From Stictocephala bisonia (lineage: Eukaryota; Arthropoda; Insecta; Hemiptera; Membracidae): a stretch of DNA of 64,000 nucleotides. The DNA lies in NCBI GenBank assembly GCA_035578905.1, contig JAQJVL010000046.1, positions 688,510 through 752,509 on the forward strand, written 5' to 3'. A model generated the notes under the pieces. The model saw only the letters and a program-made list of their open reading frames with translations. It searched no databases and was not told where the DNA came from. The position numbers were made by a program, and so were the translations under genes. Position 1 is the first letter of the stretch. Each line of letters opens with the position of its first letter. Positions 12,073-61,490 of this stretch are shown here, piece after piece.

Positions 12073-14479
12073 GGCTATCGAAAACAATGCCCAAATATTT
12101 GTATTCATTAACAAGCTCCACGCATTCACACATCACACAATCATGCTGTCCACCACATGTATGCAGGCGCAGATTGTAATCTACAGGATCGCAGTCGGCT
12201 CTTAAGGAAATAGGTAAACATTTTGTTTTGGAAATATTAACAGTGAGCCGACATTGATCAAACCAACGCTTGACAGTGAGCAGACCGCGCTCTGCCAATC
12301 CAAAAGCCTCCCTCCAACTGTCGCCTTCAAACAAAATGGCAGTATCGTCGGCATAGAGAAATATTTGGCCCCCAGCTAAATTTATTTTACCTAGATTATT
12401 TACTAAAATTAAGAACAAGAGAGGACCTAACGAACTTCCTTGCAAAACACCGTACTCTATTTTTTTATTTGAACTAAATTGGTCATAAATTGACACTGTC
12501 TGATACCGATCACTGAGATAGCTTCGAAACCAATGTAATGCCGTGCCCCTTACTCCTATGGATTCAAGCTTTGCGATCAACAAACCCCTGTCCACACTAT
12601 CAAATGCTTTGGCAAGGTCTATGAATACAACTAACGATTTTTTATTTCGCTCAATAGCGTTATGTATATTTTTTGTAACCAAAAACAAGGCGTCATTTAA
12701 ATTGTGGTCATTCCGGAAGCCGAATTGATTTTGAAACAAATTATTGTGATCGGTTACATATTTTTCTAATTGGCATCTTACACTTCTTTCGATTAGTTTA
12801 GACAATACACTAGTTAAAGTAATTGGTCTGAAACTGACACATTGGTCCTTTGGGCCACCTTTATATATTGGAATCACTTTGCCAAGTTTAAAAATAGTTG
12901 GGAAAACACCTTGATTTATACTTAAATTAATTACATGAAGTAATGGGAGTTTTATGAATTCAAAAAAATTTTTAATTAGAGATGCCGGAATTTTATCAGG
13001 GCCGGGGGCTGAATTACCCTTCATGCTTGAGACTATATGAAACAGTCCCTCCTCCGTCACCGGTTCCAGCTGGAAGTCGGAGTCCACTCGAAACTCCCGG
13101 TCGCTCAACACTGTCTCGGATACAGGAGGAACAGCTCCGGCTAGGTTGGCTCCTACCCCTACGTAATAGTCGTTTAATGTATCAGCGACGTATTTTATGC
13201 CTTCAATTTTTGGAATATCACTGTTTTTTAAAAAATGCTCCACAGGAAATTTATCTTTACTTTTGTTTAAACCCATGACTTCAGCCACGTTTTTACACAT
13301 TTTTCGTTTATTATTTGACGATTCATTAATTAACCTGCGATAATGTAAATGTTTTGCGGATTTAATCAAGGTTGTTAAAATGTTCCGGTAATTTCTAAAG
13401 TGAATTTTTAGTTCAATATTAAACGGTTGCTTTTTCAATCTCCTGCTCATCGCATCTCTGGTCCGTATCGATCTCACTAAAGCTGTAGACATCCAAGGTT
13501 TTAGTCGTGATGTTTTTGATGAAACTTTTTTTACTTTCATTGACATATCAATAATACTTTTGAATAGTTGTACAAGCGTATTACTGGCCGAATTGGCGTC
13601 AGTAGCGTTCATTACCGGGGACCAATCCCAACCAGAGATAAGACGACCAGCTGAATCTACATCAAAGAAAGAAGTTTTATTGTTGAAAGGAGACTCGTTT
13701 GAGTATTTCTCAGTGCAAGATTGGTATTGAGCGGCTATAAAATAATGATCGGTTAATTGAGACTTAATCACCGCGGATTTGATTAAACTAACGTCGTTTA
13801 CGTCTGTAAATACATGATCAATACATCTGACTGAGACATCTGTAACCCTAGTTGGAATATTTATACAGCTAACAAATCCTGCTCCATAAAGTACATCGAG
13901 GTATCTTTGAGCTAGCGGGTCCACAGTTCCAGGCAAAATACAACAATTAATGTCCCCAACCAGCCAGTACGAACTCCTCCTGCACCGATCGTCCAGATAA
14001 GACTCAAGGTCATCGATGAACAGGCCAAAGTCGCTCGATGGACTCCGGTAGACAGACAGCAGCGACAGCCGATCACTGCCAAGCATTATATCTGCTTTGA
14101 TACATGTAGCACCATGCAAACTCACTTCCTCAGACCGCACACACAAACATTTACTTACAAACACAATCACGCCATCATTCTGGTTTTTACTAGATTTATT
14201 CACAATCACATCATACCAATCCATACTCGCATTCGCGTAACTTTCATCTAGCCAAGTCTCTGTTAGTACAATAATATCAAAATTATAACTATAATTATTT
14301 AATATATTAAGTAACTCATCTATATTTTTGTTATAACTCCTGATATTCACACTTAAAATAGTTATGGAATTCTTTAGGTTTGCATTTTTTTCTACAAAAA
14401 ATTTAAAATCATCTGCCCCCTCATATACGCATGCATTGACAACTCTGCAATTCGCAATCTCATCTATTATATCGTCCAT
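12038..14479 (-). CDS. LINE ORF2: endonuclease plus reverse transcriptase (5' portion)
   Basis: The protein nicks target DNA and copies the element RNA (target-primed reverse transcription). The ATG at 14479 (MDDIIDE) is the first methionine; the frame is open a few codons further upstream but starts there with TTG. Counted from this ATG, the endonuclease domain spans about residues 38-255, with SVNIRSYNKN, LTETWLDES, SVYRSP, WLVGDINC and TDHYF motifs. The RT spans about residues 490-760, with APGPDKIP, FRPITL, QFGFR, FIDLAKAFDSVD, GVLQGSSLGPLL and the catalytic LYADDTAIL. It then reaches YKYLGIVFDS, typical of the RT thumb, after which this frame stops within about a dozen codons. The conserved thumb continuation lies in another frame, so this copy carries a frameshift near 12065-12075. 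Catalytic motifs look intact, suggesting a fairly young copy. Confidence 0.93.
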   Translation of the reverse strand: MDDIIDEIANCRVVNACVYEGADDFKFFVEKNANLKNSITILSVNIRSYNKNIDELLNILNNYSYNFDIIVLTETWLDESYANASMDWYDVIVNKSSKNQNDGVIVFVSKCLCVRSEEVSLHGATCIKADIMLGSDRLSLLSVYRSPSSDFGLFIDDLESYLDDRCRRSSYWLVGDINCCILPGTVDPLAQRYLDVLYGAGFVSCINIPTRVTDVSVRCIDHVFTDVNDVSLIKSAVIKSQLTDHYFIAAQYQSCTEKYSNESPFNNKTSFFDVDSAGRLISGWDWSPVMNATDANSASNTLVQLFKSIIDMSMKVKKVSSKTSRLKPWMSTALVRSIRTRDAMSRRLKKQPFNIELKIHFRNYRNILTTLIKSAKHLHYRRLINESSNNKRKMCKNVAEVMGLNKSKDKFPVEHFLKNSDIPKIEGIKYVADTLNDYYVGVGANLAGAVPPVSETVLSDREFRVDSDFQLEPVTEEGLFHIVSSMKGNSAPGPDKIPASLIKNFFEFIKLPLLHVINLSINQGVFPTIFKLGKVIPIYKGGPKDQCVSFRPITLTSVLSKLIERSVRCQLEKYVTDHNNLFQNQFGFRNDHNLNDALFLVTKNIHNAIERNKKSLVVFIDLAKAFDSVDRGLLIAKLESIGVRGTALHWFRSYLSDRYQTVSIYDQFSSNKKIEYGVLQGSSLGPLLFLILVNNLGKINLAGGQIFLYADDTAILFEGDSWREAFGLAERGLLTVKRWFDQCRLTVNISKTKCLPISLRADCDPVDYNLRLHTCGGQHDCVMCECVELVNEYKYLGIVFDSQVVESYKLSEE

Positions 14480-14559
14480 ACAGTAGATTACTGTCCTACC
14501 TACCCAAATTGAATACAACAAGTAATAGGTGTATTTATTGAACTAAACCCATGTCACTA

Positions 14560-16035
14560 AAGAAGCAACAATGTATATAGGCCTAATCACAACAAAGATA
14601 AAAAAGATTTTACGACCTAACTATTTAAAATTAAGTAAACAAAAACAATTCTTCAATAACATAAAATGAAAATATCCAGCATGGTACCAAACATGAACTA
14701 ATCGTGCTTCTTGAATATTTACTCTTCAATTAGTAATGACTACTAATAATATAGGATGGATACAATGAGGCTATGCGATTAAAGTTGCAATAACAATGAT
14801 AAAAATATATAGTAAATATAAATTATGAGATAAAATTAAAACACACTAAGATAATAATAAAATGCTTTCTATCTCACCTTATAAAACAAATTATTTAATT
14901 TATAACCATCCATGAAAAGAGAATTGATGTGTAATAAATAAGACGTAGGCAGTAGGCCTACGTGTTTTGATAATGGAACAGTTATACGATCACAAAGCAA
15001 ACAATATTTTTTAATGTAGCACTATAAAAATAGAAAAAAGAAAAAAAAAGAACTTACATAGTTATTTATATTAATTAAATCAGTAAGACTACTTCCTCGT
15101 TTATTTTAGCGTGTTTAAAGGTCATTTTAGTCTTTAAAGTTTGTAAGTTATAGATACATCTATAGATGAATTTCCCTTTTACGCTACATTACACTAAAAT
15201 AGTTTTTAAAAGACTTTCTAAGTTTAATTTTATTTCTCACTTCCAGATAGATTTGCACTAAACAATTACCTGTATTAAATTCTCTTATGGGCTGCAAACA
15301 ACTTGAAAATACTATTTTTCTGTCGGCTTCTAGGCAACATATATTACCAAACCCCATATATAACACATTCCCTTCGAATCCAAATCAATTTGTTTGTAAT
15401 ATTTCAGGTAATAAAATTGTTAAACTTGCGAAATTTAACGATAATTTTCATCTGAAGAGTCAAGATTTTGTTCTTTTAAAAATCGTCTTCGAGGTATAAT
15501 GAATTTATTTTATTTATTTATTAATAAGATGCCGATCGTCAAGATATGGGCGAATATGGATTTCGAATGAGTGTGATGAGTGTAAATGAGCGAATGTATA
15601 CTATGAGTCCATCCAATTGAGTCCTCAACGTTGGAACAAAATCTTGTCGTTGTCATGATACCATATCATTATGGTCATACCATAATTATTTGATAATACA
15701 GTTCTTTTATAAGATTACAATACAAGTGAACATCACACACCACAAATTTATGTAACATAAGAACTAAATGTGCAAATATTAAGGTGATAGATTTCGATAA
15801 ACCACGATCGATCACTATATTATATGTACATCAACAATGTATTTATATTGTAGTTCAGTTCCATTTTATTTGTACCAAAACGTAATATGCTAACCATGAA
15901 ACTATATAAAGGATTGTCAATCTTCAGATATCTGGTAAAAGTGTATTATTGATATTGTGTGTTGTACTGACGATGTATTAAATGTTCTGACTGTCGAAAT
16001 GGAAATCATCATATAATAATTTTGTCATCATATTG
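14560..16035. other. AT-rich sequence with a decayed ribozyme-family fragment
   Basis: No gene is recognised. At about 15720-15840, caatacaagtgaacatcac, aggtgatagatttcgat and cacgatcgatcac match, with decay, one arm of the hammerhead-bearing repeat at 44.93-45.27 kb. Confidence 0.5.
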
Positions 16036-17389: not shown

Positions 17390-18110
17390 AAAGAAGTAAC
17401 AAAAACCGAAACCTGTAATAACAAGCCCGGCTAATTGGATAAATGTTCATATTTCAGTGATTAAACCAAATGTTCACCTGCTGGCCATTGCCTAATGAGC
17501 AATGCTGTTAGAGCAATTTATAAAGACTTGAAAATAAAACTATATTACTGTTGGTTCAAAACACAAAAGCGAACAACCAAATCGTAACCAGTTAAAAGCC
17601 GTGTTATATAAATCCATCATATGTATTGTTCAACAGTAAATATGATTACTTAAGCGTAGTTATTCGTGTGGTTTTAATTTATTTATTGATGTAAAATGAT
17701 CATAGACACCTTGTATGCTAAACTATTGATAATTATATAACTTTTCAAGTTACGAAAATTTAATAAAACAATTGACAAACAGTAATAAATATACAAAAAC
17801 TATACATAAGCAACCAAATATACAGGGTGTTTAGCCTCGACTGTCGCATATTTTAAAGGATTGCTTGTTAGGCTAATACAAGCAAATAAAACATTATAAC
17901 ATGAATTTTGGTATTAAAGTTGATCTAAGAAAAACACATTTTATGTAAAAAGGCTGTATGTCTAAGATTATCAGTTCCAAAATGCCGGGTGTCTAAACAT
18001 TTCAAAGTGAAATATAAAAAAAACTACAAATTTTACTAAAAAAATGTTTAAATACAATATTTCTAGACTATATTATGCCAAATTCAACGATACGCCAATT
18101 TAAAAGATCG
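17390..18110. other. AT-rich sequence with no recognisable feature
   Basis: No exon, RNA gene or clear repeat was seen. A cagggtgtttagcc motif near 17822 resembles transposon ends but I found no matching partner. Confidence 0.4.
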
Positions 18111-18215
18111 GATGATAAATAACAGAAGAAACTTAATTTTTGTGACTGAAAGCATTATATGATCACGTTAAAGAGTAGCCAGCCACAAAAATTAAGTTCC
18201 TTCGCTTTTTATCAT
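18110..18215. repeat. Imperfect inverted repeat (arms of about 32 bp)
   Basis: Left arm ggatgataaataacagaag with aaacttaatttttgtg, right arm cacaaaaattaagttccttc with gctttttatcatcc, and a spacer of about 36 bp. It is probably a short foldback relic. Confidence 0.8.
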
Positions 18216-18337
18216 CCAATATTTAAAATTTAAATTTAAATTTAGTACTTTCAAATGACTAAAAAATAAAAACTCCTATATAATTATCTTAAGTAAGTTA
18301 TTAATTAAAAGTTATAAGTTGCTAATTGAAAGTAATC

Positions 18338-31030: not shown

Positions 31031-31364
31031 CCCAACAGATTGATTTGGCAAAGTATGGTTAGGTATGAAAACCAATTGTTCATATCGAAAACTGAACAAT
31101 TAAAGACAACGGAAAACTAATTTTTTTAAATTAAGAAACTAAACGCAAATAATGTTTGAATCTTGTTTGGATTCGTCGAGATGAGAATGTGATGAATAAA
31201 TTACACTAACAGTTACGGTTTAAAAATTGGTTCGGCGATGAGTTAATTTTCGTTACCATTATTATTTTCTCATTACTAATTTACTGACAAATTGATTGAA
31301 AAATCATAAATGTACAACAAAGTTTTAAGGATTTTTGAAATTTGTTAATGATGGAGTATCAGAT

Positions 31365-31641
31365 GAGGAAGACAAAGGTTGTTGGGCATTTGCCATCATT
31401 ACGTGCAAATTACCAATCACGACGTTTCGATTAGGTTAAATTCTATGATCTAGATTAAAATATAGATAATTATTAATGTAGATAAGTTTATTAGTTTAAG
31501 AATGTAGTTTTATAAATGTTTGTGTAGATGTAATTTAGTTTTTAGCACTTGAAAAAGATTTGGGTTTTACCAAGTCGAAACGTCGTGATTGGTAATTTTC
31601 ACGTAATGATGGCAAATGTCCAACAACCTTTGTCTTCCTCA
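31365..31641. repeat. Inverted-repeat element with GAAACGUC ends
   Basis: Arms of about 68 bp (31365-31433 and 31573-31641) share gacaaaggttgttgg, gccatcattacgtg and the core cgaaacgtcgtgattggtaa. The palindromic ACGT followed by C is what a dimer-type hammerhead stem III and cleavage site would look like, but the CUGANGA part is decayed (TTGAAAAA) on the right arm and unrecognisable on the left. Confidence 0.8.
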
Positions 31642-32481: not shown

Positions 32482-32567
32482 GTACCTCTACAATTCCTCT
32501 ATAAACTGTTGTTTTTAGGGTATTTGTTAGGGTTGGATATTTTCAACGTTTCAAGTGTTGTTAAAAC

Positions 32568-32616
32568 TAACACAACGTTTCGACAGGTATAAAATTCTTC
32601 TCCTATTCAGGTGCTA
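32568..32616 (-). ncRNA. Hammerhead-like motif, core mutated
   Basis: On the - strand, UAGCAC (stem I 5'), core CUGAAUA (expected CUGANGA), a long hairpin closed by cctgtc, GAAA, palindromic ACGU, U, and GUGUUA (stem I 3'). Stem I pairs over 6 bp with wobbles. The single core substitution should inactivate it. It belongs to the same family as 55715-56041 and lies about 85 bp past the exon donor. Confidence 0.6.
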
Positions 32617-32675
32617 CTTTCTACTTTATCCTATATACTTATAAAATTATTTTTTTTCTTAGCCCTTGTAGTAAC

Positions 32676-32821
32676 AAAGGGTGGGGGCTGTCAGGCACCT
32701 TTTGTTTTTGTGAATATTTTTACCTAAAGGTGGTGTTAAAATTCCCCAAAAAATTGATACAGTCATTTTATATCTGTATAACTCTTTCCAATGTAAAATT
32801 ACAAATTTCCACCTACGTAGC

Positions 32822-32904
<83 letters not shown>

Positions 32905-32948
32905 GTCATGTGGGCCTGACAGCCCCCCCCTTGGTCCTTTGTGTGACC
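32676..32948. mobile_element. MITE-like element containing a (TA)n tract
   Basis: Imperfect terminal inverted repeats are gggggctgtcaggcacc on the left and gggcctgacagccccccc on the right, with further partial complementarity outward (acaaagggt, cctttgtgt). The interior contains the TA repeat. No transposase is present. Confidence 0.65.
32826..32901. repeat. (TA)n microsatellite
   Basis: A nearly pure TA run of about 75 bp with one interruption (tatatatta). Confidence 0.97.
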
Positions 32949-32949
32949 T

Positions 32950-33588
32950 ACTCAATTTCAGTCGTGTTACATTTTTTTTAATTTTGTTGTTTAATTCTGT
33001 TTTTTGAGTGGTTTTATACATTATAAACTTATATATTACAGCCTATGAGCTGTTAGGTTTATGGTAATCTAAAGTTTATCATCTATCTCAAGTTCAACTA
33101 TCTAAAATGAAGTATATTACTTGAAATTATTGAAACAACCAAGAAAATGAAGTATAATTATTAAGGAAAATCTAAAAAATCTGTTCCTAATGTCAGAACA
33201 ATGTCTGTGGTGCTCACAGCACATACAAGTTGTATGCAGCAAGTGCAGCGTGGTAGAAACAGACGAATCCGAACAAGGTGAAGAATTACACGATTTCAAT
33301 TTCTTACCAGTAAATTATGAGCGGATTTTTTTGTATTTCATGAGTAAATGTTTTTATTGCTAAATAGTGTGTATTTATATGTATGTAGCCCTTAAAAAAA
33401 CTGAGTGTCTCAGCTCAAGAGTAAATGGCTGTTGTCATGGTGGATTGCCCCCTTTAGTCCTCCACGGGACGGGCAACTCCTTGGTCCTGCTAGAATTTTA
33501 AATAACAGCCTATATAACCCTTAAAAGATTGTAAGCTTATAGATTACGATGGACTCTTCAGAAAATCATGTCCTATTACAAACTATTA
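32950..33588. other. Sequence with no recognisable feature
   Basis: No exon or repeat was recognised. A GC-richer patch at about 33425-33490 (ccacgggacgggcaactcct) may be a SINE relic but I could not place it. Confidence 0.35.
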
Positions 33589-33589
33589 C

Positions 33590-35634
33590 AGGTACACTGA
33601 ACTATTATTTATAAACTAAACTATTACATATACACTGGACTATTATTTATAAACTAAACTATTACAGATACACTGGACTATTATTTATAAACTAAACTAT
33701 TACAGATACACTGGACTATTATTGATAAACTGAACTATTACTAAAACAGTGAACTATTACAGATACACTGAACTATTATTGATAAACTGAACTATTACAG
33801 ATACACTGAACTATTATTGATAAACTGAACTATTACAGATACACTGAACTATTATTGATAAACTGAACTATTTCAGATACAGTGAACTATTACAGATACA
33901 CTGAACTATTATTTATAAACTAAACTATTACAGATACACTGAACTATTATTTATAAACTAAACTATTACAGATACACTGGACTAATATTGATAAACTGAA
34001 CTATTACTGATACAGTGAACTATTACAGATACACTGAACTATTACACATACACTAAACTATTACAAATACACTGAACTACTTCAGTTAAACTGAACTATT
34101 ACCGATACAATGACCTATTACAGATACACTGAACTATTACACATACACTAAACTATTACAAATACACTGAACTACTTCAGTTAAACTGAACTATTAGAGA
34201 TACACTGAGCTATTACACATACACTAAACTATTACAAATACACTGAACTACTTCAGTTAAACTGAACTATTACAGATACACTGAGCTATTACACATACAC
34301 TAAACTATTACACATACACTGAACTACTTCAGTTAAACTGAACTATTACCGATACAATGAACTATTACAGATACACTGAACTATTACACATACACTAAAC
34401 TATTACACATACACTGAACTACTTCAGTTAAACTGAACTAATACCGATACAATGAACTATTACAGATACACTGAACTATTACACATACACTAAACTATTA
34501 CAAATACACTGAACTACTTCAGTTAAACTGAACTATTATAGATACACTGAACTATTACACATACACTAAACTATTACAAATACACTGAACTACTTCAGTT
34601 AAACTGAAATATTACAGATACACTGAGCTATTTCAGATAAACTAAACTATTACAGATACACTGAGCTATTACACATGCACTGAACTATTTTAGTTAAACT
34701 GAACTATTAATAAAACACTAAACTATTACAGATACACTGAACTATTTCAAATAAACTGAACTATTACATATACACGGAACTATTACAGATACACTGAACT
34801 ATTACAGATACACAGAACTATTATTGATAAATTGAACTATTACAGATATACTGAACTATTACACATACACTGAACTATTTCAGTTAAACTAAACTATTAC
34901 AGACACACTGAACTATTACAGGTACACAGAACTATTATTGATAAATTGAACTATTACAGATATACTAAACTTTTACAGATACACTGAACTATTTCAGTTA
35001 AACTGAACTATTACAGATACAATGAACTATTACAGATACACTGAACTATTACAGATACACTGAACTATTACAGATACACTGAACTATTACAGATACACAG
35101 AACTATTACAGATACACTGAACTATTATTGATAAATTGAACTATTACAGATACACTGAACTATTTCAAATAAACTGAACTATTACAGATAAACTGAACTA
35201 TTTCAGTTAAACTGAACTATTACATATACACGGAACTATTACAGATACACTGAACTATTACAGATACACAGAACTATTATTGATAAATTGAACTATTACA
35301 GATATACTGAACTATTACACATACACTGAACTATTTCAGATACACTGAACTATTACAGATACACAGAACTATTATTGATAAATTGAACTATTACAGATAT
35401 ACTGAACTATTACAGATAAACTGAACTATTACTAAAACACTAAACTATTACACATACACTGAACTATTTCAGTTAAACTGACCTATTACAGATACAATGA
35501 ACTATTACATATACACTGAACTATTACAGATACACTGAACAATTTCAGATAAACTGAACTATTACAGATACACTGAACTATTACAGATACACTGAACTAT
35601 TACAGATAAACTGAACTATTACAGATAAGCTGAA
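33590..35634. repeat. 19-bp tandem repeat, over 100 copies
   Basis: The unit is gaactattacagatacact, with variants gaactattattgataaact and gaactacttcagttaaact. Variant units recur in fixed order, indicating blocks of several units copied together. Confidence 0.95.
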
Positions 35635-35779
35635 CTTTTTTATTTAGTTTCATATTTTTGTAAGAAGAGATGATTTTTTTATGAGATTATCGTAATCTTT
35701 TAAGGAGCATATAATTGTTTAAGGGGGTTTATAATTTTGGGTATGTTATTTTAGTAAAAAACGTCTTTAATGAAGGATA

Positions 35780-35850
35780 ACAAAGTTAGTAACTCCTGAA
35801 GATGCCGGAGTTCTATATCTGTAGAAACGTTTTATAAATTGTATAAACAC
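35780..35850 (+). other. Decayed hammerhead-family fragment
   Basis: CTGAAGA (within ctcctgaagatgccgg) is followed 21 bases later by GAAACGTT, matching the core order of the 55.7-56.0-kb elements. Stem I and stem II complementarity is not convincing. Confidence 0.45.
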
Positions 35851-37050
35851 TTGAATTGTTAGAATTCTCAAACATAATCTCTATCTGCTATAAACATATG
35901 AACCAATGCATGAGTCAACGTCTATAAAATCACAGTTTTAGTCGTTGAAGTGCGTTTTCCTCTTGTCTTAGTAAGCATCGAGTAGCACCAAAAACATTTT
36001 AAACAAACTATTTTAACATTGAATTTTAAAACCAAGTCGCAGTTATTAACTTATTAACTTAACTTACAACAAAATCTTTATCAACACTGTGGAATTAAAT
36101 CGTATACATTTTTACAAACGAGTGTCAACAAGAAAAGCGTTCGTAACGTTTATACTCAAAATCATTTCATATAAATCAAAGCCAACCTAATATTTGGCAT
36201 TTGATGTTCTATGTTTCACGTTCGAGGAATTGAATGTCTCATAATGTTTTTGCCTTAAACGATTTTAAATTACAGAATATGCTATCTTTACAATAATGTC
36301 GAAGACAATGTGAAACTATCAAAATCAACGTCAAATTCAAACTAAGATTGTCTAAAAACTGAAAATTAGTTATTAAAAAACATAAAATTTACCACTAACA
36401 GTAACGAAAATGCAATGTTTCAATTATTATTCAAATGACTCAAATTTTATTTTAGCTTCATCTTCCTTCCTACTAAATCCATTTACAGTTTTTAAGTACT
36501 GTTGTAGCCAATTGTAATCTAAATGAAACACAAAAACAAGCTTTCTTTTTACAAAATTACTCACTTTTGAAACATATTCTATGTAGGGCACTTTAATAAC
36601 ACGTCTTTTTGAAGTGTCATGATAAGTAATTTTGTATTATTTCGAAATTTTTACAATCATCAACCAATGTGTAACATTTATACTCAATATTATGAATCAT
36701 GGTAAAGTTAAAAATTGTTGAAAAAAACACATATTAAAAGACAGAGAAGTAAGAACCTCAGAATGTCTGTTATGTCGTTTTATACAGACAACAAATTTAG
36801 CTTACTCACCTGTTGTTTGATTCTAGCCAACTTGTGACAGTATCGTCAGTCCCCATTACCAACCACCTGTAGTGGTCGTTCAGTTGTTTATACTGTACAG
36901 GCCATGTTGTACAATTTCAGCACATGATTTTTGTCGTACTTGATTGATTTACATCAGTTACTTCTGAAATGACGAAATTATAACAGGAGGCAACAATAAG
37001 AACATATTTTAAGGTTAATCTAACAACTCTGGACAAGTTAGAGTCATCGC
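35851..37050. other. AT-rich sequence with no recognisable feature
   Basis: No exon, RNA gene or repeat was recognised. Confidence 0.4.
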
Positions 37051-42356: not shown

Positions 42357-43020
42357 CAACAATTTACAATACCCTGTTATTATAACATATTTGTAGGTGT
42401 GTTATGAATGGAAACAAAAGTCACAGTATTTGTATGTTAGGAAACCCCCTGCAATATTTTTTATTTAACCTATAAAATATTGTTTATTAAACCTAAAAAA
42501 CAGACAATGCTCCGTTATTTAATTTGTGACTGTGCTTAAAAGGGTCCTCCTTTGTTCTTGGAAAAGGTCCATCCGTATACACCGACTGTTAGTTCCGGGC
42601 AAGGGCTTTGCCAATATTGGACTGTGGCCAATGACAGGGTGAAGTACTGCCGGAAAACCCTGATGAAAGTTTCAATTGTTTTTCTCGACATCTGCGTATT
42701 TGAGTCCTGTCCAGTCTTTCGGCGTTAAATACAATGAATTGTCTTTGCAAACCTCATTTCATGTTTTGTTAATTTACTCTAAACGAATTCCTTCTTTATG
42801 TCATTTTAGATATACGTGTTTGAGTAGTACACTTAGATTTTATTTTCCCAACATTTATTGAAGAAAAACTGCCCTACATTTCATAATATAAACAAGCGTT
42901 TTCGAGTTATTCATTCTAAACTGATATTTAAAGCAAGCCTAAAAGGGAGGTGTGTGAATTTTACAAAAATCTACTAAACTGCAATGCAGCATATAGTAAA
43001 AGGTTACTTATTCCTAAAGC
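42357..43020. other. Mostly unrecognised; array flank shared with 46.67 kb
   Basis: At 42370-42420, aacatatttgtaggtgtgtt and atgaatggaaacaaa match a segment at 46672-46715. The rest shows no recognisable feature. Confidence 0.5.
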
Positions 43021-43023
43021 TTC

Positions 43024-43248
43024 CGTTAACGACCGCGTCAAGGTGTTGTCTACAATATTTACATCACCAAACGTTTCGCCTATGACGTGATGTGGCATCC
43101 TCAGTGGTATCTGAGATCTCTTACATGGAGTCTCAGAGATACCTCTTCGGATGCCACATCACATCATGGGTGAAACGTTTGGTAATGTAAATATTGTAGA
43201 TAACACCTTGATGCGGTCGTTTCCGGAAGCTCTAGTTATTAGTAATGA
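43024..43248. mobile_element. Inverted-repeat element with hammerhead-like arm
   Basis: Two arms of about 90 bp share acgaccgcgtcaaggtgttg (right arm: tgatgcggtcgt) and gtctacaatatttac, accaaacgtttc and gatgtggcatcc. They face each other across about 45 bp. The left arm on the - strand carries the intact hammerhead-like core. The right arm core is mutated (CTTCGGA). Confidence 0.85.
43065..43109 (-). ncRNA. Hammerhead ribozyme-like motif (type I, minimal)
   Basis: On the - strand: UACCA (stem I), CUGAGGA, one extra base, GCC...GGC (short stem II), GAAA, self-complementary ACGU, U (site), UGGUG (stem I, complementary to UACCA). A stem III consisting only of ACGU would need a dimer. Confidence 0.6.
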
Positions 43249-44094: not shown

Positions 44095-44820
44095 TTACAT
44101 TACCTAAAATAATAAAATTAGATTAGGTTTGGATTTTTAAGGTAGGTAGGTTACATTCTGTTACTTTAGGTTCGGTTAGGTTGGGGTTTGTAAGGTTAGG
44201 CTGGTGTTTTAGATTAGCTTTTGTTAACCTAACCTAATAAAACCTAACTAAACAAATGTAACCTAAATAAACTTAACATAACCTAACCTAACAATACTCA
44301 ACCTAGTCCTATTGTATCAAAACATTAAGACTCTTATCGTTAGTAAAATAATGTTACTAAAACTGGTACATTTCCATGATCAAGAACCCTTGTGATATCC
44401 GTGATCAGGACAAAATTCAGCACAATTTGAGAACCCACGCCGCTATATTTACGAAAAGGAAGCATTTTTCCGTTTTTAAACATTTTTGGGTCAAATTCCT
44501 TTAGCTGCTCGCCAAACCCAAACTTTTTCTCTGCCAATAACTACCTAAACTACTTATATATTTACAAGACATGTTGTTATTAGCTTCATTTGTAATGAAA
44601 GGACTTGTCTGTAACATAACCTAACCTAACCTAACCTACACAATATATTTTTGTGTTTGTGTGAAGGAAGCTTCTATGACATATTGTATAGTGAGTGTTT
44701 AATACGTCCTGCAACATCTTTCATATCTCCTTAATGGATATTCGGTAATAGACGAAAGTGTGGGTTTGGCGGGCAGCTAAAGGAATTTGACCCATTTTCA
44801 TAATGTTCCCAGATGCTGTA
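44095..44820. repeat. Region rich in CCTAA/TTAGG with inverted segments
   Basis: Many aggttaggtt motifs (44160-44210) face cctaacctaa motifs (44225-44310), and four perfect CCTAA copies lie at about 44617-44640. A second inverted pair shares gtttggcgNgcagctaaagg and aatttgaccca (44475-44530 on -, 44762-44815 on +). This suggests a decayed foldback element. Confidence 0.65.
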
Positions 44821-45017
44821 AATAACGATCATATTATTGTTTCTTAGTTATGAAAGAATGTTCAGCTTAAAATAGACAAGGCTCCTGATCTATATAAATA
44901 CTATGGTTTATGACATTAATACAGTACAAGTAAACGTCACAAAACACAAATTTATTACAATATAAGCACAAAATGCACAAATATATTACAATACAAGTTC
45001 AAAATGCACAAATATTA

Positions 45018-45062
45018 TGGTGATCGATTTCGGTGAACCACGCTCACCTTCCTCAGACCAGA
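45018..45062 (-). ncRNA. Hammerhead ribozyme-like motif (left arm)
   Basis: On the - strand: UGGU, CUGAGGA, extra A, GGUGA...UCACC (stem II), GAAA, AUCGAU (self-complementary stem III), C, ACCA. Stem I is 4 bp, shorter than in the right arm. Confidence 0.65.
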
Positions 45063-45137
45063 GGGATTCACAAGAGAATGGAAAATGATTAGTAAATTGA
45101 GTTGTAGAACATCGTTTTTCATTCTTTTGTGAATCCC

Positions 45138-45184
45138 TATGGTCTGAGGAAGGTGAGCGTGGTTCACCGAAATCGATCACCATA
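45138..45184 (+). ncRNA. Hammerhead ribozyme-like motif (right arm)
   Basis: The order is UAUGGU (45138-45143), CUGAGGA (45144-45150), one unpaired A, GGUGA / UCACC (stem II), GAAA (45169-45172), palindromic AUCGAU (45172-45177), C at 45178 (predicted cleavage site), and ACCAUA (45179-45184). UAUGGU and ACCAUA pair perfectly. All conserved hammerhead core positions are present. The extra base between CUGANGA and stem II departs from the textbook form, but such an insertion is known in a natural viroid hammerhead. Confidence 0.72.
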
Positions 45185-45279
45185 ATATTTATGTATTTTG
45201 TACTTGTATTGTAATATATTTGTGCATTTTGTGCTTATATTGTAATAAATATGTTTTGTGTGACGTTTACTCTACTATA

Positions 45280-46135
45280 TACCAACACGTATTATGCTAA
45301 TTAAAAAACTATTTGAAATTAATAGTCGTTTAGGTCCAGTTCAATTAGGAAGTTTTGGATTCAATGGTTCAGATTCAAATATTATATGAACATTTTTCTA
45401 TAAACAGAATAACTGGCAAGTAAACAAAACACTAATAAGAAACAATAAAACTATTTAAAAAGTTGATTTAAGAATCAGCCAATTCTTGTTTATTTGTTCA
45501 TGGACTGTCAAGAAGAACACAAATACAGACTAACTTTGAAAACTTTGTAATAAAATGAGGATTATAAACAAACCATGACTAAGCAAAATAATTCATTTTC
45601 ATATTCGGATATAGAAATTATATATCCGAATTTATTATATAACAAATGTTCCATATTCGGATATAGGAAAGTCTATACTGAACTTATAGTAAAATCGAAA
45701 TATCTGGTAACAACTGAACATCCGATAATCAAAGAAAATACTAAAAATAGAATTTTAAACAACGATGAACATAATATCACTAAACCAAGTGATTTTAAAA
45801 TATCAAGCTACTGTAATACCTCTGAATTGGTCGAATCAATTGTGTACAACATTCTAGAATAGAACATATATAGAAACAATGAATAACACGCTTTTATTTT
45901 CTTATTTTTTTATCTAGAGAAGAAAAAATAAGTAGAGAAAATACAACCAAATAGAACGATTTTGATCTCTAGTTACAACGTGCAGAATTTTCCAAACTCT
46001 ACAAATTGTGTAATTCAGTATTTTTAAGTAAGTCAGAGTGTGTTTATGTTCTGTAAAATGGGAAAATTTATATTCCAGATTCCCCGTTTTACATTGGTTT
46101 ATCATGCATCGTAAACCCAGCGCGCCATTTATGCG
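45280..46135. other. AT-rich sequence, no gene recognised
   Basis: It contains an 11-bp hairpin (attcggatata / tatatccgaat) near 45603-45632. The 95-codon frame at 45575-45862 has AT-driven composition and no domain. Confidence 0.4.
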
Positions 46136-50087: not shown

Positions 50088-51158
50088 CACACACGGTGTT
50101 GAAAACTTATGGAACCACCTTCATTTCTCTTAAATGGGTCCAGATAAATAATTGATATTTAGGATTTCTCTGTAGAATGATTTTTTCTAACTTTTGATGC
50201 AGTTTATAAGTGTTTTTTAACTATAGGGGAGGGCTCGTAGAGGATTTCGAAAAAAAGTTTAAATGAAAAGTTATCATGAGTTGCCCATCATTTTAAAGCC
50301 AATTCACTCTGAATAAGACGCCATAAGTTTCAAGTCAAAAGAACCACACTATCAGAAATGGCCACTGGTTAATCTTTCTTAGCAGTGATATTTGAGTGGG
50401 AATTCGACTTGTTGTAAAAGCTTGTTATGAAGCTAGGTATTTGATTAAAGAAATAGAAAATTATCTTAAAATACATTATTGACATAATAGTACAAATATC
50501 TCTTAGAACAGAACTGGATTTTACAACATATCGAATTCTCACTCAAATATCACTGCTAAGAGAGGTTAACCAGTTGCCATTTCTGATAGGGTGGTTCTTT
50601 TGACTTGAAACTTATGGCATCTTATTCAGAAAAATATAAATAGGCTTTAAAATGATGGACAACTCATCATAGCCTTTCATTTAAATTTTTGCCAAATTCC
50701 TCTACGGGCCCTCCCCTCTAGGTAAATAACAATTATAAATTGCATCATAATATATATATATATATATAAAACAAGCATACCAAATCTCAATTATTTATCT
50801 GGACCCATTTAAAAAAAAAATTAAGGTGGTTACATACTTGTTCAAGACCCTCTGCTAAGAAAGATTAACCCATCGCCATTTCTGATAGGGTGGGGTGGTT
50901 CTTATGACTGGAAACTTGTCGTGTCTTATTGTGGCGTCTTAATCACAAAAAAAAAGGCTTTAAAATGTTAGGCAACTCATCATAGCCTTTCGTTTAAACT
51001 TTTTACAACCATCCGCGAGCCCTCCCCTCTAGGTTGAAAAATATTACAAACTGCATCAAAAGATAGAAAAAACTGTTCAGAGGTATACTAAATCTCAGTT
51101 AATTACCTGAACCCATTTAAGAGAAATTAAGGTGGTTCCATACTTTTGTAGATAAATT
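50088..51158. mobile_element. Large foldback element with an extra half copy
   Basis: Arm A (about 50088-50410) and inverted arm A' (about 50528-50850) share ttatggaaccacctt / aaggtggtt, aaatgggtccagataaataa, ggggagggctcgtagagg, gttgcccatcattttaaagc and ggccactggttaa. A third, direct copy of A' follows at about 50855-51158, ending aaggtggttccatacttttg. The arms are over 300 bp each. No protein-coding capacity. Confidence 0.88.
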
Positions 51159-51962: not shown

Positions 51963-52221
51963 AAATCAGACAATCAATATAAAGAAATAAACGTCCTTCA
52001 TCAAAACAACGTTTTATTGATTACAGTCAACAATAAAAAATACCCATCTAAAAAATTAATTTTAATTCATATGGGTCCATTAAAGTATGTCAAAATATGC
52101 CACATAAAAAAAAGAATAAGAAAAGTTTGCAATATAGTGATATGAGATACGATCTACGGAATGATGTGTGCTTACTTTGAAAGTGTAAGGAAAGTGACTT
52201 GGTTATTTATTCACGAGGCTT

Positions 52222-54112
52222 TGGCCACACGCTCTAGTGAGGCTACACGCTATGGTTCTCTGCTGTGTTCCTGGGTCACACTCAAACTGTTCTTGACCAC
52301 ACGCTCTAGTGAGGCTACTCGCTGTGGTTCTCTGCTGTGTTCCTGGGTCACACTCAAACTGTTCTTGACCACACGCTCTAGTGAGGCTGCACGCTATGGT
52401 TCTCTGCTGTGTTCCTGGGTCACACTCAGACTGTTCTTGACCACACGCTCTAGTGAGGCTGCACGCTATGGTTCTCTGCTGTGTTCCTGGGTCATACTCA
52501 AACTGTTCTTGACCACACGCTCTAGTGAGGCTGCACGCTGTGGTTCTCTGCTGTGTTCCTGGGTCACACTCAAACTGTTCTTGACCACACGCTCTAGTGA
52601 GGCTGCACGCTGTGGTTCTCTGCTGTGTTCCTGGGTCATACTCAAACTGTTCTTGACCACACGCTCTAGTGAGGCTGCACGCTGTGGTTCTCTGCTGTGT
52701 TCCTGGGTCACACTCAAACTGTTCTTGACCACACGCTCTAGTGAGGCTACACGCTATGGTTCTCTGCTGTGTTCCTGGGTCATACTCAAACTGTTCTTGA
52801 CCACACGCTCTAGTGAGGCTGCACGCTATGGTTCTCTGCTGTGTTCCTGGGTCATACTCAAACTGTTCTTGACCACACGCTCTAGTGAGGCTGCACGCTA
52901 TGGTTCTCTGCTGTGTTCCTGGGTCACACTCAAACTGTTCTTGACCACACGCTCTAGTGAGGCTACACGCTGTGGTTCTCTGCTGTGTTCCTGGGTCACA
53001 CTCAAACTGTTCTTGACCACACGCTCTAGTGAGGCTGCACGCTGTGGTTCTCTGCTGTGTTCCTGGGTCACACTCAAACTGTTCTTGACCACACGCTCTA
53101 GTGAGGCTACACGCTGTGGTTCTCTGCTGTGTTCCTGGGTCACACTCAAACTGTTCTTGACCACACGCTCTAGTGAGGCTGCACGCTGTGGTTCTCTGCT
53201 GTGTTTCTGGGTCATACTCAAACTGTTCTTGACCACGCGCTCTAGTGAGGCTGCAAGCTGTGGTTCTCTGCTGTGTTTCTGGGTCATACTCAAACTGTTC
53301 TTGACCACACGCTCTAGTGAGGCTGCACGCTATGGTTCTCTGCTGTAATCCTTAGTCATACACAAACTGTTCTTGACCACACGCTCTAGTGAGGCTGCAC
53401 GCTGTGGTTCTCTGCTGTGTTTCTGGGTCATACTCAAACTGTTCTTGACCACACGCTCTAGTGAGGCTGCACGCTATGGTTCTCTGCTGTAATCCTTAGT
53501 CATACACAAACTGTTCTTGACCACACGCTCTAGTGAGGCTGCACGCTGTGGTTCTCTGCTGTGTTTCTGGGTCATACTCAAACTGTTCATGACCACACGC
53601 TCTAGTGAGGCTACACGCTGTGGTTCTCTGCTGTGTTTCTGGGTCATATTCAAACTGTTCTTGACCACACGCTCTAGTGAGGCTACACGCTGTGGTTCTC
53701 TGCTGTGTTTCTGGGTCATACTCAAACTGTTCTTGACCACACGCTCTAGTGAGGCTGCACGCTGTGGTTCTCTGCTGTGTTTCTGGGTCATAATCAAACT
53801 GTTCTTGACCACACGCTCTAGTGAGGCTGCACGCTGTGGTTCTCTGCTGTGTTTCTGGGTCATACTCAAACTGTTCTTGACCACACGCTCTAGTGAGGCT
53901 GCACGCTGTGGTTCTCTGCTGTGTTTCTGGGTCATAATCAAACTGTTCTTGACCACACGCTCTAGTGAGGCTAAACGCTGTGGTTCTCTGCTGTGTTTCT
54001 GGGTCATACTCAAACTGTTCTTGACCACACGCTCTAGTGAGGCTACACGCTGTGGTTCTCTGCTGTGTTTCTGGGTCATACTCAAACTCTGTTCTTGACC
54101 ACACGCTCTATA
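52222..54112. repeat. 72-bp tandem repeat, array A (about 26 copies)
   Basis: The unit is ctcaaactgttcttgaccac, acgctctagtgaggctgcac, gctgtggttctctgctgtgt, tcctgggtcaca. The period is 72 bp, so a 395-codon frame stays open; it is a repeat artefact because all strands and several frames are open. Units from about 53200 on carry tttctggg instead of ttcctggg. Confidence 0.96.
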
Positions 54113-55670: not shown

Positions 55671-55714
55671 TAATTTTGGTGTAAATTTACAACGCTTATA
55701 GTGTTTTTAAAACT

Positions 55715-55762
55715 AACACAACGTTTCGACAGGTATGAGACTTCCTGTCCTCTTCAGGTGCC
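55715..55762 (-). ncRNA. Hammerhead ribozyme-like motif (left arm)
   Basis: On the - strand: GGCAC, CUGAAGA, extra G, GACAGG...CCUGUC (perfect 6-bp stem II), GAAA, ACGU, U, GUGUU. Stem I pairs over 5 bp with two wobbles. Confidence 0.68.
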
Positions 55763-55992
55763 ACCTACTACCTCATCCTACATATACAAATATTATTATA
55801 TACTACTTAACTAACCCTTTTCAACGTAGAGTATTTTTTTCGTAATTGTGTGTATAAGAAGACATGATTTTCAGAGAAGTCTATCGTAATCAATAAACAC
55901 ACGATTCTGTTAGGGTTTTATACGTTGATACGAGTTATTTATGTATTATAAAAATAAAAACATTAGTTTGATATGTGGGATAAGGTAGTAAG

Positions 55993-56041
55993 TAGCGCCT
56001 GAAGATGACAGGAGTTTCATGCCTATCGAAACGTTGTGTTA
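55993..56041 (+). ncRNA. Hammerhead ribozyme-like motif (right arm)
   Basis: UAGCGC, CUGAAGA (55999-56005), extra U, GACAGG...CCUAUC (stem II with one mismatch), GAAA, ACGU, U (site), GUGUUA (56036-56041). Stem I pairs over 6 bp including two wobbles. Confidence 0.65.
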
Positions 56042-56090
56042 GTTTTAAATAAAACTAACATATAATTACTTACTGTTTACACCAAAATGT

Positions 56091-57195: not shown

Positions 57196-60100
57196 ATGGA
57201 GCGTGTAGCCTGACTAGAGCGTGTGGTCAAGAACAGTTTGAGTATGACGCAGGAACACAGCAGACAACCACAGCGTGTAGCCTCACTAGAGCGTGTGGTC
57301 AAGAACAGTTTGAGTATGACCCAGAAACACAGCAGAGAACTACAGCGTGTAGCCTTACTAGAGCGTGTGGTCAATAACAGTTTGAGTATGACCCAGAAAC
57401 ACAGCAGAGAACTACAGCGTGTAGCCTTAATAGAGCGTGTGGTCAAGAACAGTTTGAGTATGACCCAGAAACACAGCAGAGAACTACAGCGTGTAGCCTT
57501 ACTAGAGCGTGTGGTCAAGAACAGATTGAATATGACCAAGGAACACAGCAGAGAACCCCAGCGTGTAGCCTCACTAGAGGGTGTGGTAAAGAACAGTTTG
57601 AGTATGACCCAGGAACACAGCAGAGAACCACAGCGTGTAGCCTCACTAGAGCGTGTGGTCAAGAACAGTTTGAGTATGACCCAGGAACACAGCAGAGAAC
57701 CTCAGCGTGTAGCCTTACTAAAGCGTGTGGTCAAGAACAGTTTGAGTATGACCCAGAAACACAGCAGAGAACTACAAGGTGTAGCCTTACTAGAGCGTGT
57801 GGTCAAGAACAGTTTGAGTATGACCAAGGAACACAGCAGAGAACCAAAGCGTGTAGCCTCACTAGAGCGTGTGGTCAAGAACAGTTTGAGTATGACCCAG
57901 GAACACAGCAGATAACCACAGCGTGCAGCCTCACTAGAGCGTGTGGTCAAGAACAGTTTAAATATGACCCAGAAACACAGCAGAGAACCACAGCGTGTAG
58001 CCTCACTAGAGTGTATGGTCAAGAACAGTTTAAGTATGACCACAGAATATATGTCTATATTCTGTGGTATGACCCAGAAACACAGCAGAGAACTACAGCG
58101 TGTAGCCTCACTAGAGCGTGTGGTAAAGAACAGTTTGAGTATGACCCCGGAACACAGCAGAGAACCACAGCGTGTAGACTCACTAGAGCGTGTGGTCAAG
58201 AACATTTTAAGTATGACCACAGAATATATGTCTATATTCTGTGGTATGACCCAGGAACACAGCAGAGAACCACAGCGTGTAGCCTCACTAGAGCGTGTGG
58301 TCAAGAACAGTTTGAGTATGACCCAGGAACACAGCAGAGAACCACAGCGTGTAGCCTTACTAGAGCGTGTGGTCAAGAACAGTTTGAGTATGACCCAGGA
58401 ACACAGCAGAGAACCACAGCGTGTAGCCTCACTAGAGCGTGTGGTCAAGAACAGTTTGAGTATGACCAAGGTACACAGCAGAGAACCACAACGTGTAGCC
58501 TCACTAGAGCGTGTGGTCAAGAACAGTTTGAGTATGACCCAGGAACACAGCAGAGAACTACAGCGTGTAGCCTTACTAGAGCGTGTGATCAAGAACAGTT
58601 TGAGTATGACCCAGGAACACAGCAGAGAACCACAGCGTGTAGCCTCACTAGAGCGTGTGGTCAAGAACAGTTTGAGTATGACCCAGGAACACAGCAGAGA
58701 ACCACAGCATGCAGCCTCACTAGAGTGTTGTTCAAGAACCTTTTAATATGACCCAGAAACACAGCAGAGAACCACAGCGTGTAGCCTCACTAGAGCGTGT
58801 GGTCAAGAACAGTTTGAGTATGACCCCGGAACACAGCAGAGAACCACAGCGAGTAGCCTCACTAGAGCGTGTGGTCAAGAACAGTTTAAGTATGACCACA
58901 GAATATATGTCTATATTCTGTGGTATGACCCAGGAACACAGCAGAGAACCACAGCGTGTAGCCTCACTAGAGCGTTTGGTCAAGAACAGTTTGAGTATGA
59001 CCCAGGAACACAGCAGAGAACCACAGCGTGTAGCCTCACTAGAGCGTGTGGTCAAGAACAGTTTGAGTATGACCCAGGAACACAGCAGAGAACCATAGCG
59101 TGTAGCCTTACTAGAGCGTGTGGTCAAGAACAGTTTGAGTATGACCCAGAAACACAGCAGAGAACTACAGCGTGTAGCCTTACTAGAGCGTGTGGTCAAG
59201 AACAGTTTGAGTATGACCCAGGAACACAGCAGAGAACCACAGCGTGTAGCCTCACTAGAGCGTGTGGTCAAGAACAGTTTGAGTATGACCCAGGAACACA
59301 GCAGAGAACCACAGCATGCAGCCTCACTAGAGTGTTGTTCAAGAACAGTTTAAATATGACCCAGAAACACAGCAGAGAACCACAGCGTGTAGCCTCACTA
59401 GAGCGTGTGGTCAAGATTAGTTTGAGTATGACCCAGGAACACAGCAGAGAACCACAGCATGCAGCCTCACTAGAGTGTTGTTCAAGAACAGTTTAAATAT
59501 GACCCAGGAACACAGCAGAGAACCACAGCGTGTAGCCTCACTAGAGCGTGTGGTCCAGAACAGTTTGAGTATGACCCCGGAACACAGCAGAGAACCACAG
59601 CGAGTAGCCTCACTAGAGCGTGTGGTCAAGAACAGTTTAAGTATGACCACAGAATATATGTCTATATTCTGTGGTATGACCCAGGAACACAGCAGAGAAC
59701 CACAGCGTGTAGCCTCACTAGAGCGTGTGGTCAAGAACAGTTTGAGTATGACCCAGGAACACAATAGAGAACACAGCGTGTAGCCTCACTAGAGCGTGTG
59801 GTCAAGAACAGTTTGAGTATGACCCAGGAACACAGCAGAGAACCACAGCGTGTATTCTCACTAGAGCGTGTGGTCAAGAACAGTTTGAGTATGACCCAGG
59901 AACACAGGAGAGAACCACAGCATGTAGCCTCACTAGAGCGTGTGGTCAAGAACAGTTTAAGTATGACCACAGAATATATGTCTATATTCTGTGGTATGAC
60001 CCAGAAACACAGCAGAGAACTACAGCGTGTAGCCTCACTAGAGCATGTGGTCAAGAACAGTTTGAGTATGACCCAGGAACACAGCAGAGAACCACAGCGT

Positions 60101-61490
60101 GTAGCCTCACTAGAGCGTGTGGTCAAGAACAGTTTGAGGATGACCCAGGAACACAGCAGAGAACCACAGCGTGTAGCCTCACTAGAGCGTGTGGTCAAGA
60201 ACAGTTTGAGTATGACCCAGGAACACAGCAGAGAACCACTGCGTGTAGCCTCACTAGAGCGTGTGGTCAAGAACAGTTTGAGTATGATCCAGGAACACAA
60301 TAGAGAACACAGCGTGTAGCCTCACTAGAGCGTGTGGTCAAGAACAGTTTGAGTATGACCCAGGAACACAGCAGAGAACCACAGCGTGTATTCTCACTAG
60401 AGCGTGTGGTCAAGAACAGTTTGAGTATGACCTAGGAACACAGGAGAGAACCACAGCGTGTAGCCTCACTAGAGCGTGTGGTCAAGAACAGTTTAAGTAT
60501 GACCACAGAATATATGTCTATATTCTGTGGTATTACCCAGAAACGCAGCAGAGAACTACAGCGTGTAGCCTCACTAGAGCGTGTGGTCAAAGCCTCGTGA
60601 ATAAATGAACAAGCCACGTTCACAAGGGTTGTCGATATGACACATACATTCAATTGCTGTACCACAGTTTGAGTATGATCCAGAAACACAGCAGAGAACC
60701 ACAGCGTGTAGCCTCACTAGAGCGTGTGGTCAAGAACAGTTTGAGTATGACCCAGAAACACAGCAGAGAACCACGTTGTAGAACCTCACTAGAGCGTGTG
60801 GTTAAAGCCTTGTGAATAAATGACCAAGTCACATTCTCAATGCTTGTCAATATGGCACATACATTCAACTGTTGTGCTACAGTCTGAGTATGACCGAGAA
60901 ATACAGCAGAGAACTACAGCGTGTAGCCTCACTAAAGCGTGTGGTCAAAGCCTCGTGAATAAATGAACAAGCCACGTTCAAAAGAGTTGTCGATATGACA
61001 CACATACATTCAACTTTTGTACCACAGTTTGAGTATGACCCAGAAACACAGCAGAGAACCACAGCGTGCAGCCTCACTAGAGTGTGTGGTCAAGAACAGT
61101 TTGAGTATGACCCAGAAACACAGCAGAGAACCACATTGTAGAGCCTCACTAGAGCGTGTGGTCAAGAACAGTTTGAGTATGACCCAGAAACACAGCAGAG
61201 AACCACAGCGTACAGCCTCACTAGAGCGTGTGGTCAAGAACAGTTTGAGTATGACCCAGAAACACATCAGAGAACCACAGCGTGCAGCCTCACTAGAGCG
61301 TGTGGTCAAGAACAGTTTGAGTATGACCCAGGAACACAGCAGAGAACCACAGCGTGTAGCCTCACTAGAGCGTGTGGTCAAGAACAGTTTAAGTATGACC
61401 ACAGAATATATGTCTATATTCTGTGGTATGACCCAGAAACACAGCAGAAAACCATAGCGTGCAGCCTCACTAGAGCGTGTGGCCAAAGCC
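57196..61490. repeat. 72-bp tandem repeat, array B (inverted relative to array A)
   Basis: The unit is the reverse complement of array A (gagcgtgtggtcaagaacag, tttgagtatgacccaggaac, acagcagagaaccacagcgt, gtagcctcacta). Seven units carry a 33-bp palindromic insertion. Three others (60583-60680, 60795-60895, 60935-61035) carry an insertion of about 95 bp beginning caaagcctcgtgaataaatg, which resembles the array's own outer flank. Open frames are repeat artefacts. Confidence 0.96.

Follow-up and report, generated by a model that had tools for sequence, protein, structure and literature searches.

Positions 44919-45313 of the window (the whole 64,000-nucleotide stretch of Stictocephala bisonia DNA that was analysed) are almost certainly a short insertion of a Penelope-like element (PLE), in which two pseudo-LTRs (pLTRs) of about 190 nt, the repeats that serve the element as promoter, lie head to head and a tail is present on one end. 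The palindrome arm is the pLTR of an autonomous, young PLE. The parts of the insertion, with its hammerhead motifs, are listed below.

44919-45313, plus strand: whole insertion, comprising inverted pLTR, pLTR and tail of a Penelope-like element; the ends are largely equal in the fetched genome copies
44915-44921 and 45318-45324, no strand: weak 7-nt target-site-duplication candidate ATTAATA, from flank comparison
44919-45089, minus strand: left inverted pLTR arm, tail-less, from the arm search and the match to the autonomous pLTR
44938-45018, minus strand: 31-nt repeat units in the left pLTR arm, from the repeat search
45018-45060, minus strand: mirror hammerhead motif with stem I of 4 bp, from the descriptor
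45090-45110, no strand: palindrome centre, the join of two pLTRs, differing in most copies, from centre comparison
45093-45280, plus strand: right pLTR arm; the match to the autonomous pLTR starts within a TATAAAT stretch
45138-45184, plus strand: minimal type-I hammerhead motif in which CUGAGGA is followed by an extra A, from the descriptor; predicted cleavage after 45178
45185-45247, plus strand: 31-nt repeat units in the right pLTR arm, from the repeat search
45281-45313, plus strand: one-sided PLE tail, in which the ATG at 45294 reads MLIKKLF, like the PLE ORF start

The best inverted-repeat arms (44929-45089 and 45111-45271) are 161 nt each, 94% complementary and separated by a spacer of 21 nt, and the near-perfect palindrome spans 44919-45280, with a looser arm match of 90%. 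An earlier note on this DNA had described a palindrome at 44928..45275 with a hammerhead-like motif in each arm, which the repeat search and the descriptor bear out. The palindrome stands at the coordinates described, but the inserted unit is longer and reaches about 45313 on the right only. The left arm (44919-45085) matches the pLTR found in autonomous tandem copies (L107) at 97.0% identity, and the right side (45093-45318) is 92.2% identical to the autonomous pLTR; the match to the autonomous PLE ceases shortly past the ATG at 45294. The duplication candidate is 7 nt long; of 1406 pairs of unrelated flanks, 157 likewise agree over 7 nt or more.

The genome (1,683,019,093 bases, or 1.68 Gb, in 11,105 contigs) was searched with positions 44900-45300, and the best 40 of 3302 candidates were scored, namely the window and 39 fetched loci. 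The repeat is palindromic in the window and in 37 of the 39 fetched loci, and single in L104 and L105. L104 has a 663-aa open frame that stops immediately ahead of its single pLTR and matches the Pfam domains RVT_1 (44.3 bits, cut-off 29.6) and GIY-YIG (25.3 bits, cut-off 22.6). This ORF has 156 relatives in the protein collection, and among the 120 listed 57 are 794 to 853 aa long; homologues P0096 and P0097 start with MLIKKLF. The single pLTR of L105 is preceded by a 143-aa frame, which on visual inspection corresponds to the last part of the L104 ORF and for which a Pfam search names nothing. When the PLE ORF was sought in the genome, 67 of 18,733 candidate places were scored, all 97-100% identical, and a stop-free open frame of 856 aa is present in 21 of the 67 rows.

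Seven copies of this ORF lie in tandem on contig C1867, about 2760 b apart, and the genome also has inverted pairs. Stretches cut from between tandem ORFs (L107, L108 and L114) contain the pLTR, in the order TATAAAT, hammerhead, 31-nt repeats and then ATGCTAATTAAAAAACTATTT, the ORF start MLIKKLF. In L107 the pLTR leads into an ORF whose first residues are MLIKKLF, which is also the reading of the window tail. Across its copies the repeat shows the features of PLEs, which are reverse transcriptase and GIY-YIG domains in one ORF adjoining the pLTR, tandem copies, an optional tail of about 30-40 nt at one end and target-site duplications of variable length. The earlier note had taken the repeat for a non-autonomous element with no protein, which does not hold given that the arm is a pLTR adjoining RT/GIY-YIG ORFs elsewhere in the genome. 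It had also called the head-to-head order unusual, when this is described as the most frequently observed order of inverted Penelope pLTRs (PMC3846280). Head-to-head pairs of the PLE ORF itself were seen on contigs C7210, C7762 and C10768 of the assembly (G000), with the matched parts about 230 to 600 b apart. A gap of this size cannot fit both N-terminal parts, so inverted joins may form deeper within the ORF.

Across the whole genome the exact 35-nt ribozyme core occurs 4,225 times (2143 + 2082), with 0 occurrences of the reversed control, and 2883 + 2967 exact copies span the predicted cleavage site. Exact palindromic places of one spacing class number 116 (control 0). Contig C1 carries 89 exact sites. 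Among neighbouring sites no more than 1500 b apart there are 16 divergent pairs, one convergent and one direct, as against 4.5 divergent pairs, and a maximum of 13, in 10,000 trials with shuffled strands. The search for further copies that had been proposed thus returned thousands of them, many palindromic. A pattern scan of the genome-contig collection gave no match, nor did scans of viral contigs for the repeat, and the contigs picked up by broader patterns are not relatives of the 45-kb repeat.

The hammerhead motif on the right arm reads, in order, a stem I of 6 bp, CTGAGGA, an extra A, stem II, GAAA, TCGA, TC and ACCATA. The 6-bp stem I and the predicted cleavage position after 45178 are as had been described. 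The type-I elements (CUGANGA, GAAA, A15.1-U16.1, H17, and stems I and II in order) are all present, with one extra base after A9. A strict type-I descriptor without the extra base has 0 matches in the whole window; one that allows 0-1 extra base finds two, one in each arm of the 45-kb palindrome, and 7 in 1500 dinucleotide shuffles. The palindrome geometry makes the second motif a mirror of the first, so that it provides no independent evidence. Both of the outward-facing strings reported earlier are indeed there, but they amount to one mirrored motif rather than two independent ones.

A second descriptor, which tolerates 0-2 extra bases and lets the stem III spacer range from 2 to 6, identifies 4 exact-core sites in the window, every one with exactly one extra base and all within three palindromes (at 45.0, 43.1 and 55.7 kb). 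On 300 shuffles it returns 0.043 sites per window, with a maximum of 1. Five imperfect copies of the motif lie in the same or related palindromes. These other copies and palindromes are as follows.

15714-15905, plus strand: older decayed copy with its centre deleted and a right-hand tail common with the 45-kb element, from sequence match
31364-31641, no strand: palindrome whose hammerhead motif, at 31543-31590 (plus), is decayed
32554-35851, no strand: element related to the 55.7-kb palindrome, in which the outward motifs at 32568-32616 (minus) and 35790-35837 (plus) are decayed
43004-43245, no strand: second palindrome whose hammerhead motifs face outward; that at 43065-43109 (minus) has an exact core and that at 43139-43185 (plus) is decayed
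55699-56057, no strand: third palindrome whose hammerhead motifs face outward; that at 55714-55763 (minus) has an exact core, and the other is at 55993-56041 (plus)

The six palindromes listed in the analysis comprise 2130 bases, or 3.3% of the window, and the presence of hammerhead motifs in the window's palindromes is not due to chance. The 31-, 43- and 55-kb palindromes would also be of PLE origin. For the 43-kb palindrome there were 3913 first-look candidates in the genome and 40 of 40 scored places match in both orientations, which points to another abundant motif-bearing palindromic family. In both of its arms, an ATG overlapping the hammerhead core opens a frame of 43-45 codons. Within 32554-35851 a 2-kb minisatellite (33581-35636) occupies the expected centre, and palindrome centres may seed minisatellites. 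Two long palindromes among the six, 50095-50849 and 18097-18230, contain no hammerhead by descriptor or model; the former has a third partial arm that extends to 51142. Elsewhere in the window, a non-LTR retrotransposon ORF (12038-14542, minus) contains RVT_1 and a weak endonuclease match and has 94 relatives in the protein collection, the named ones being arthropod. Large 72-b minisatellites of one kind are found in opposite orientations at 52221-54110 and 57200-61406, and AACCT-like repeats are also present.

In seven motif rows from which the 45-kb element was excluded, 79.7% of the cells in stems I and II are paired, and the covariation score is reached by 0 of 500 shuffles; these rows take in both arms of three elements and are not independent. 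A covariance model (R1) whose 7 motif rows come from three palindromes and one relative recovers its own 7 members in the window, with no other match below E=0.25. The 45-kb motif gained no covariance-model support, being missed at E<=10 by this model from the window's other palindromes. The Rfam check for hammerheads was also negative, with none at the gathering score in the whole window and none at E<=10 in 44600-45600 or 45134-45188. A fully closed phage type-I hammerhead that served as a control (L021) is likewise below the Rfam gathering score and was missed at E<=1 in a 12-kb search. In a 66-base Rfam search it reached 20.2 bits against a cut-off of 48.5 and hammerhead families were named, whereas an equally narrow search of the window motif named no hammerhead family. 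At the gathering score, Rfam reported 0 of the 11 closed phage-type hammerheads among 16 loci. Because the control also falls under the cut-off, yet is named in the narrow search, the Rfam negative is weak, though not empty. Matches to Rfam microRNA hairpins are an artefact of the long palindrome.

The extra base in the 45-kb motif is an A between A9 and G10.1. The plus-strand hammerhead of chrysanthemum chlorotic mottle viroid naturally has one extra A at the same place, with a moderate drop in its trans-cleaving rate (PMC3705267); this is a viroid ribozyme, and we claim no common origin. Among IMG/VR contigs, several of which are near-identical, 13 of 16 with one extra base close as complete type-I hammerheads, as do 9 of 17 without it. 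The viroid example and the 13 closures make the insertion compatible with activity. Model R1 matches viral loci that bear the extra base, the best being L011 (8e-05). Several viral contigs (L006, L009, L011, L015, L019 and others) carry type-I hammerheads that have a single extra base behind CUGANGA and lie below the Rfam gathering score, and another hammerhead-bearing viral contig (L026) carries two Twister-P5 ribozymes (1318-1377 and 1810-1867, minus).

The description of an element from the anole (PMC11167929) prompted the idea that the extra base supplies the U of an AUG start codon (A9-U10-G10.1). This fits 4 of 9 motif rows, which are both 43-kb arms, the 55.7-kb right arm and 35790-35837, and does not fit the 45-kb element. 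The ORF of the 45-kb element begins about 150 nt downstream of the motif, so the idea is not relied on. The hammerhead here is well upstream of the ORF start, whereas the ORF of the anole element is described as starting at stem II (PMC11167929).

Self-cleavage by the 45-kb motif is plausible. In the predicted fold of an isolated arm, stem II has a probability of 0.999 and stem I of 0.927; in the autonomous pLTR stretch these values are 0.109 and 0.001, and in the full palindrome both are 0. For the isolated 47-nt motif, the hammerhead stems are at -13.2 kcal/mol versus -16.3 kcal/mol for the best fold. The palindrome's own transcript would, according to these folds, silence the hammerhead by holding it in a hairpin. 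Minimal type-I hammerheads are known to cleave as dimers via a self-complementary stem III, as the earlier note recounts. A palindromic transcript, however, contains one ribozyme and one complement, and in its predicted full fold both hammerhead stems have zero probability, so the dimer idea fails inside it.

The absence of an Rfam hammerhead and a predicted pLTR RNA fold that disfavours the hammerhead are what would be expected if the likeness were coincidental and the conserved string had another role, for example as a binding site for the PLE protein. Cleavage by the anole PLE ribozyme, moreover, is reported to require protein, and the ribozyme to be dispensable for insertion in vitro (PMC11167929). 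Coincidence nevertheless seems very unlikely. The complete core and both stems recur in unrelated palindromes with compensatory changes (79.7% paired, 0 of 500 shuffles), and variability within the hammerhead is about half that of the remaining arm (0.032 versus 0.062, the latter possibly inflated by the 31-nt repeats). The pLTRs of PLEs are also documented to carry hammerheads (PMC7761336). The proposal of a minimal type-I hammerhead motif of the Penelope kind, with a self-complementary stem III and carried in a mobile element, is supported.

In order to see how the palindromes differ, 38 palindromic copies were compared. They scored best against a query that was itself palindromic and had one tail, which biases the sample toward palindromes with a single tail, and as L073 and L074 are one locus assembled twice, 37 are independent. 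The outer ends are largely equal among copies. By strict scoring with a shuffled control, the tail is on one end in 35 of the 38, on both ends in 2 and on neither in 1. The two flanks of a copy share at least 9 nt in 20 of 38 cases, compared with 17 of 1406 mismatched flank pairs, and the remaining 18 copies have no duplication of this length. The centres fall into 31 classes, and many contain filler, part of which consists of pLTR scraps; 23 of the 38 hold at least 20 nt of it, as counted by a simple ungapped extension that overcounts where arms are mutated, e.g. in L098. The longer arm is the right one in 15 copies and the left one in 19, and in 4 the arms are equal. Minor variants common to both arms of one copy number 52, against a permuted mean of 13.8 (0 of 2000 permutations reach 52), and the arms are 99-100% identical in six copies, two of them being the locus assembled twice. 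None of the 38 has an arm ending at the predicted cleavage site, in a sample biased by a query that itself contains the motif.

Since the centres are mostly different, the palindrome is mostly not inherited as a unit and is instead built anew at insertion; most palindromes look as if each was made from one kind of template at its own insertion. L079 and L083 have the same centre with different flanks, which suggests that a palindrome may sometimes be recopied. Such sharing at different sites, the largely fixed outer ends with duplications and the thousands of motif copies could be taken as signs of a separate palindromic family of the foldback or MITE kind, non-autonomous and ribozyme-bearing, that spreads as a unit. 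We consider this extremely improbable. It needs shared centres in most copies and is largely refuted by the 31 classes, the arms are homogenised within copies, and the same pLTR stands beside open PLE ORFs, whose start codon region is the tail. In MITEs and foldback elements the palindrome is inherited between fixed terminal repeats, and what is found here is variable centres and a one-sided tail. The variable centres and the linkage to PLE ORFs speak equally against the non-autonomous ribozyme-bearing mobile element that had been suggested.

The insertion as a PLE product leaves two routes to the palindrome to be weighed. PLEs are described as often inserting with head-to-head inverted pLTRs and an optional tail, for which self-priming was proposed in rotifer Penelope elements (PMC3846280): the first cDNA would fold back and be copied. 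The variants shared by the two arms of a copy (52 versus 13.8), the six copies with arms 99-100% identical (two being one locus) and centres that resemble clean hairpins, such as that of L088, which has no filler, agree with this. A snap-back should, however, place the tail at both ends, and it is at one end only in 35 of 38 copies; either arm may be the longer (15 right, 19 left, 4 equal), and at least 20 nt of filler stands in 23 of 38 centres by the ungapped extension that overcounts mutated arms. We therefore regard self-priming as rather unlikely. The alternative is that two-sided target-primed reverse transcription, with filler at the join of the cDNA ends, left the palindromes behind as fossils, a reading that we hold tentatively, with a chance not far from even. 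The purified anole PLE protein is reported to cut and extend both target strands, with reverse transcription starting within the RNA, and the PLE tail to be the stretch that separates two start sites of reverse transcription (PMC11167929). The one-sided tail and the variable, filler-containing centres are the reason for preferring two-sided priming, which we would place at about twice the probability of self-priming.

With two-sided priming, the PLE protein would cut both strands of the target, and each strand would prime reverse transcription from one of two positions inside the mRNA, either the end of the tail or that of the pLTR. The two cDNAs would each reach the 5' part of an RNA of the same kind, and the joining of their ends would leave a palindrome. 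The hammerhead would be that of the parent element, carried along. In the parent, it may cut transcripts of tandem pLTR-ORF arrays, either as a single unit or as a dimer formed by way of the AUCGAU stem III.

Minimal hammerheads in pLTRs and inverted, head-to-head pLTRs are already known in PLEs. The parent element resembles Penelope/Poseidon-type PLEs in having RVT_1 and GIY-YIG in one ORF, pLTRs, tandem units and a tail, as well as head-to-head pLTRs and a minimal hammerhead motif in the pLTR; it differs from them in that this genome holds many short ORF-less pLTR pairs. Minimal type-I hammerheads have been described in PLE pLTRs and, in their thousands, dispersed in metazoan non-coding DNA (PMC7761336). 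The 45-kb motif has the same type-I order and near-absent stem III, which here is AUCGAU, but the dispersed motifs of the window sit in head-to-head palindromes. Metazoan retrozymes, which are described as non-coding, of low GC and about 170-400 nt long with a type-I hammerhead (PMC7229834), share all four properties with the 45-kb palindrome. Retrozymes, however, are direct tandem repeats of hammerhead units that give rise to circular RNAs and have no autonomous ORF, whereas the 45-kb element is an inverted pair from an autonomous PLE, and the genome contains inverted pairs together with single copies beside PLE ORFs. Among the titles and abstract openings of the open-licence literature, we found none on hammerheads in solo inverted pLTR pairs.

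The pLTR palindromes of PLEs would account for the minimal hammerhead motifs of the window. The many short pLTR-pair insertions have defined ends and readable joins, from which strand priming sites and end joining can be read in the sequence, and they could also show whether ribozyme-cleaved RNA ever serves as a template. If an unbiased count also shows no arms ending at the cleavage site, uncleaved RNA would be the usual template. If two-sided priming is true, the genome of S. bisonia would be a base-resolution record of the reaction.
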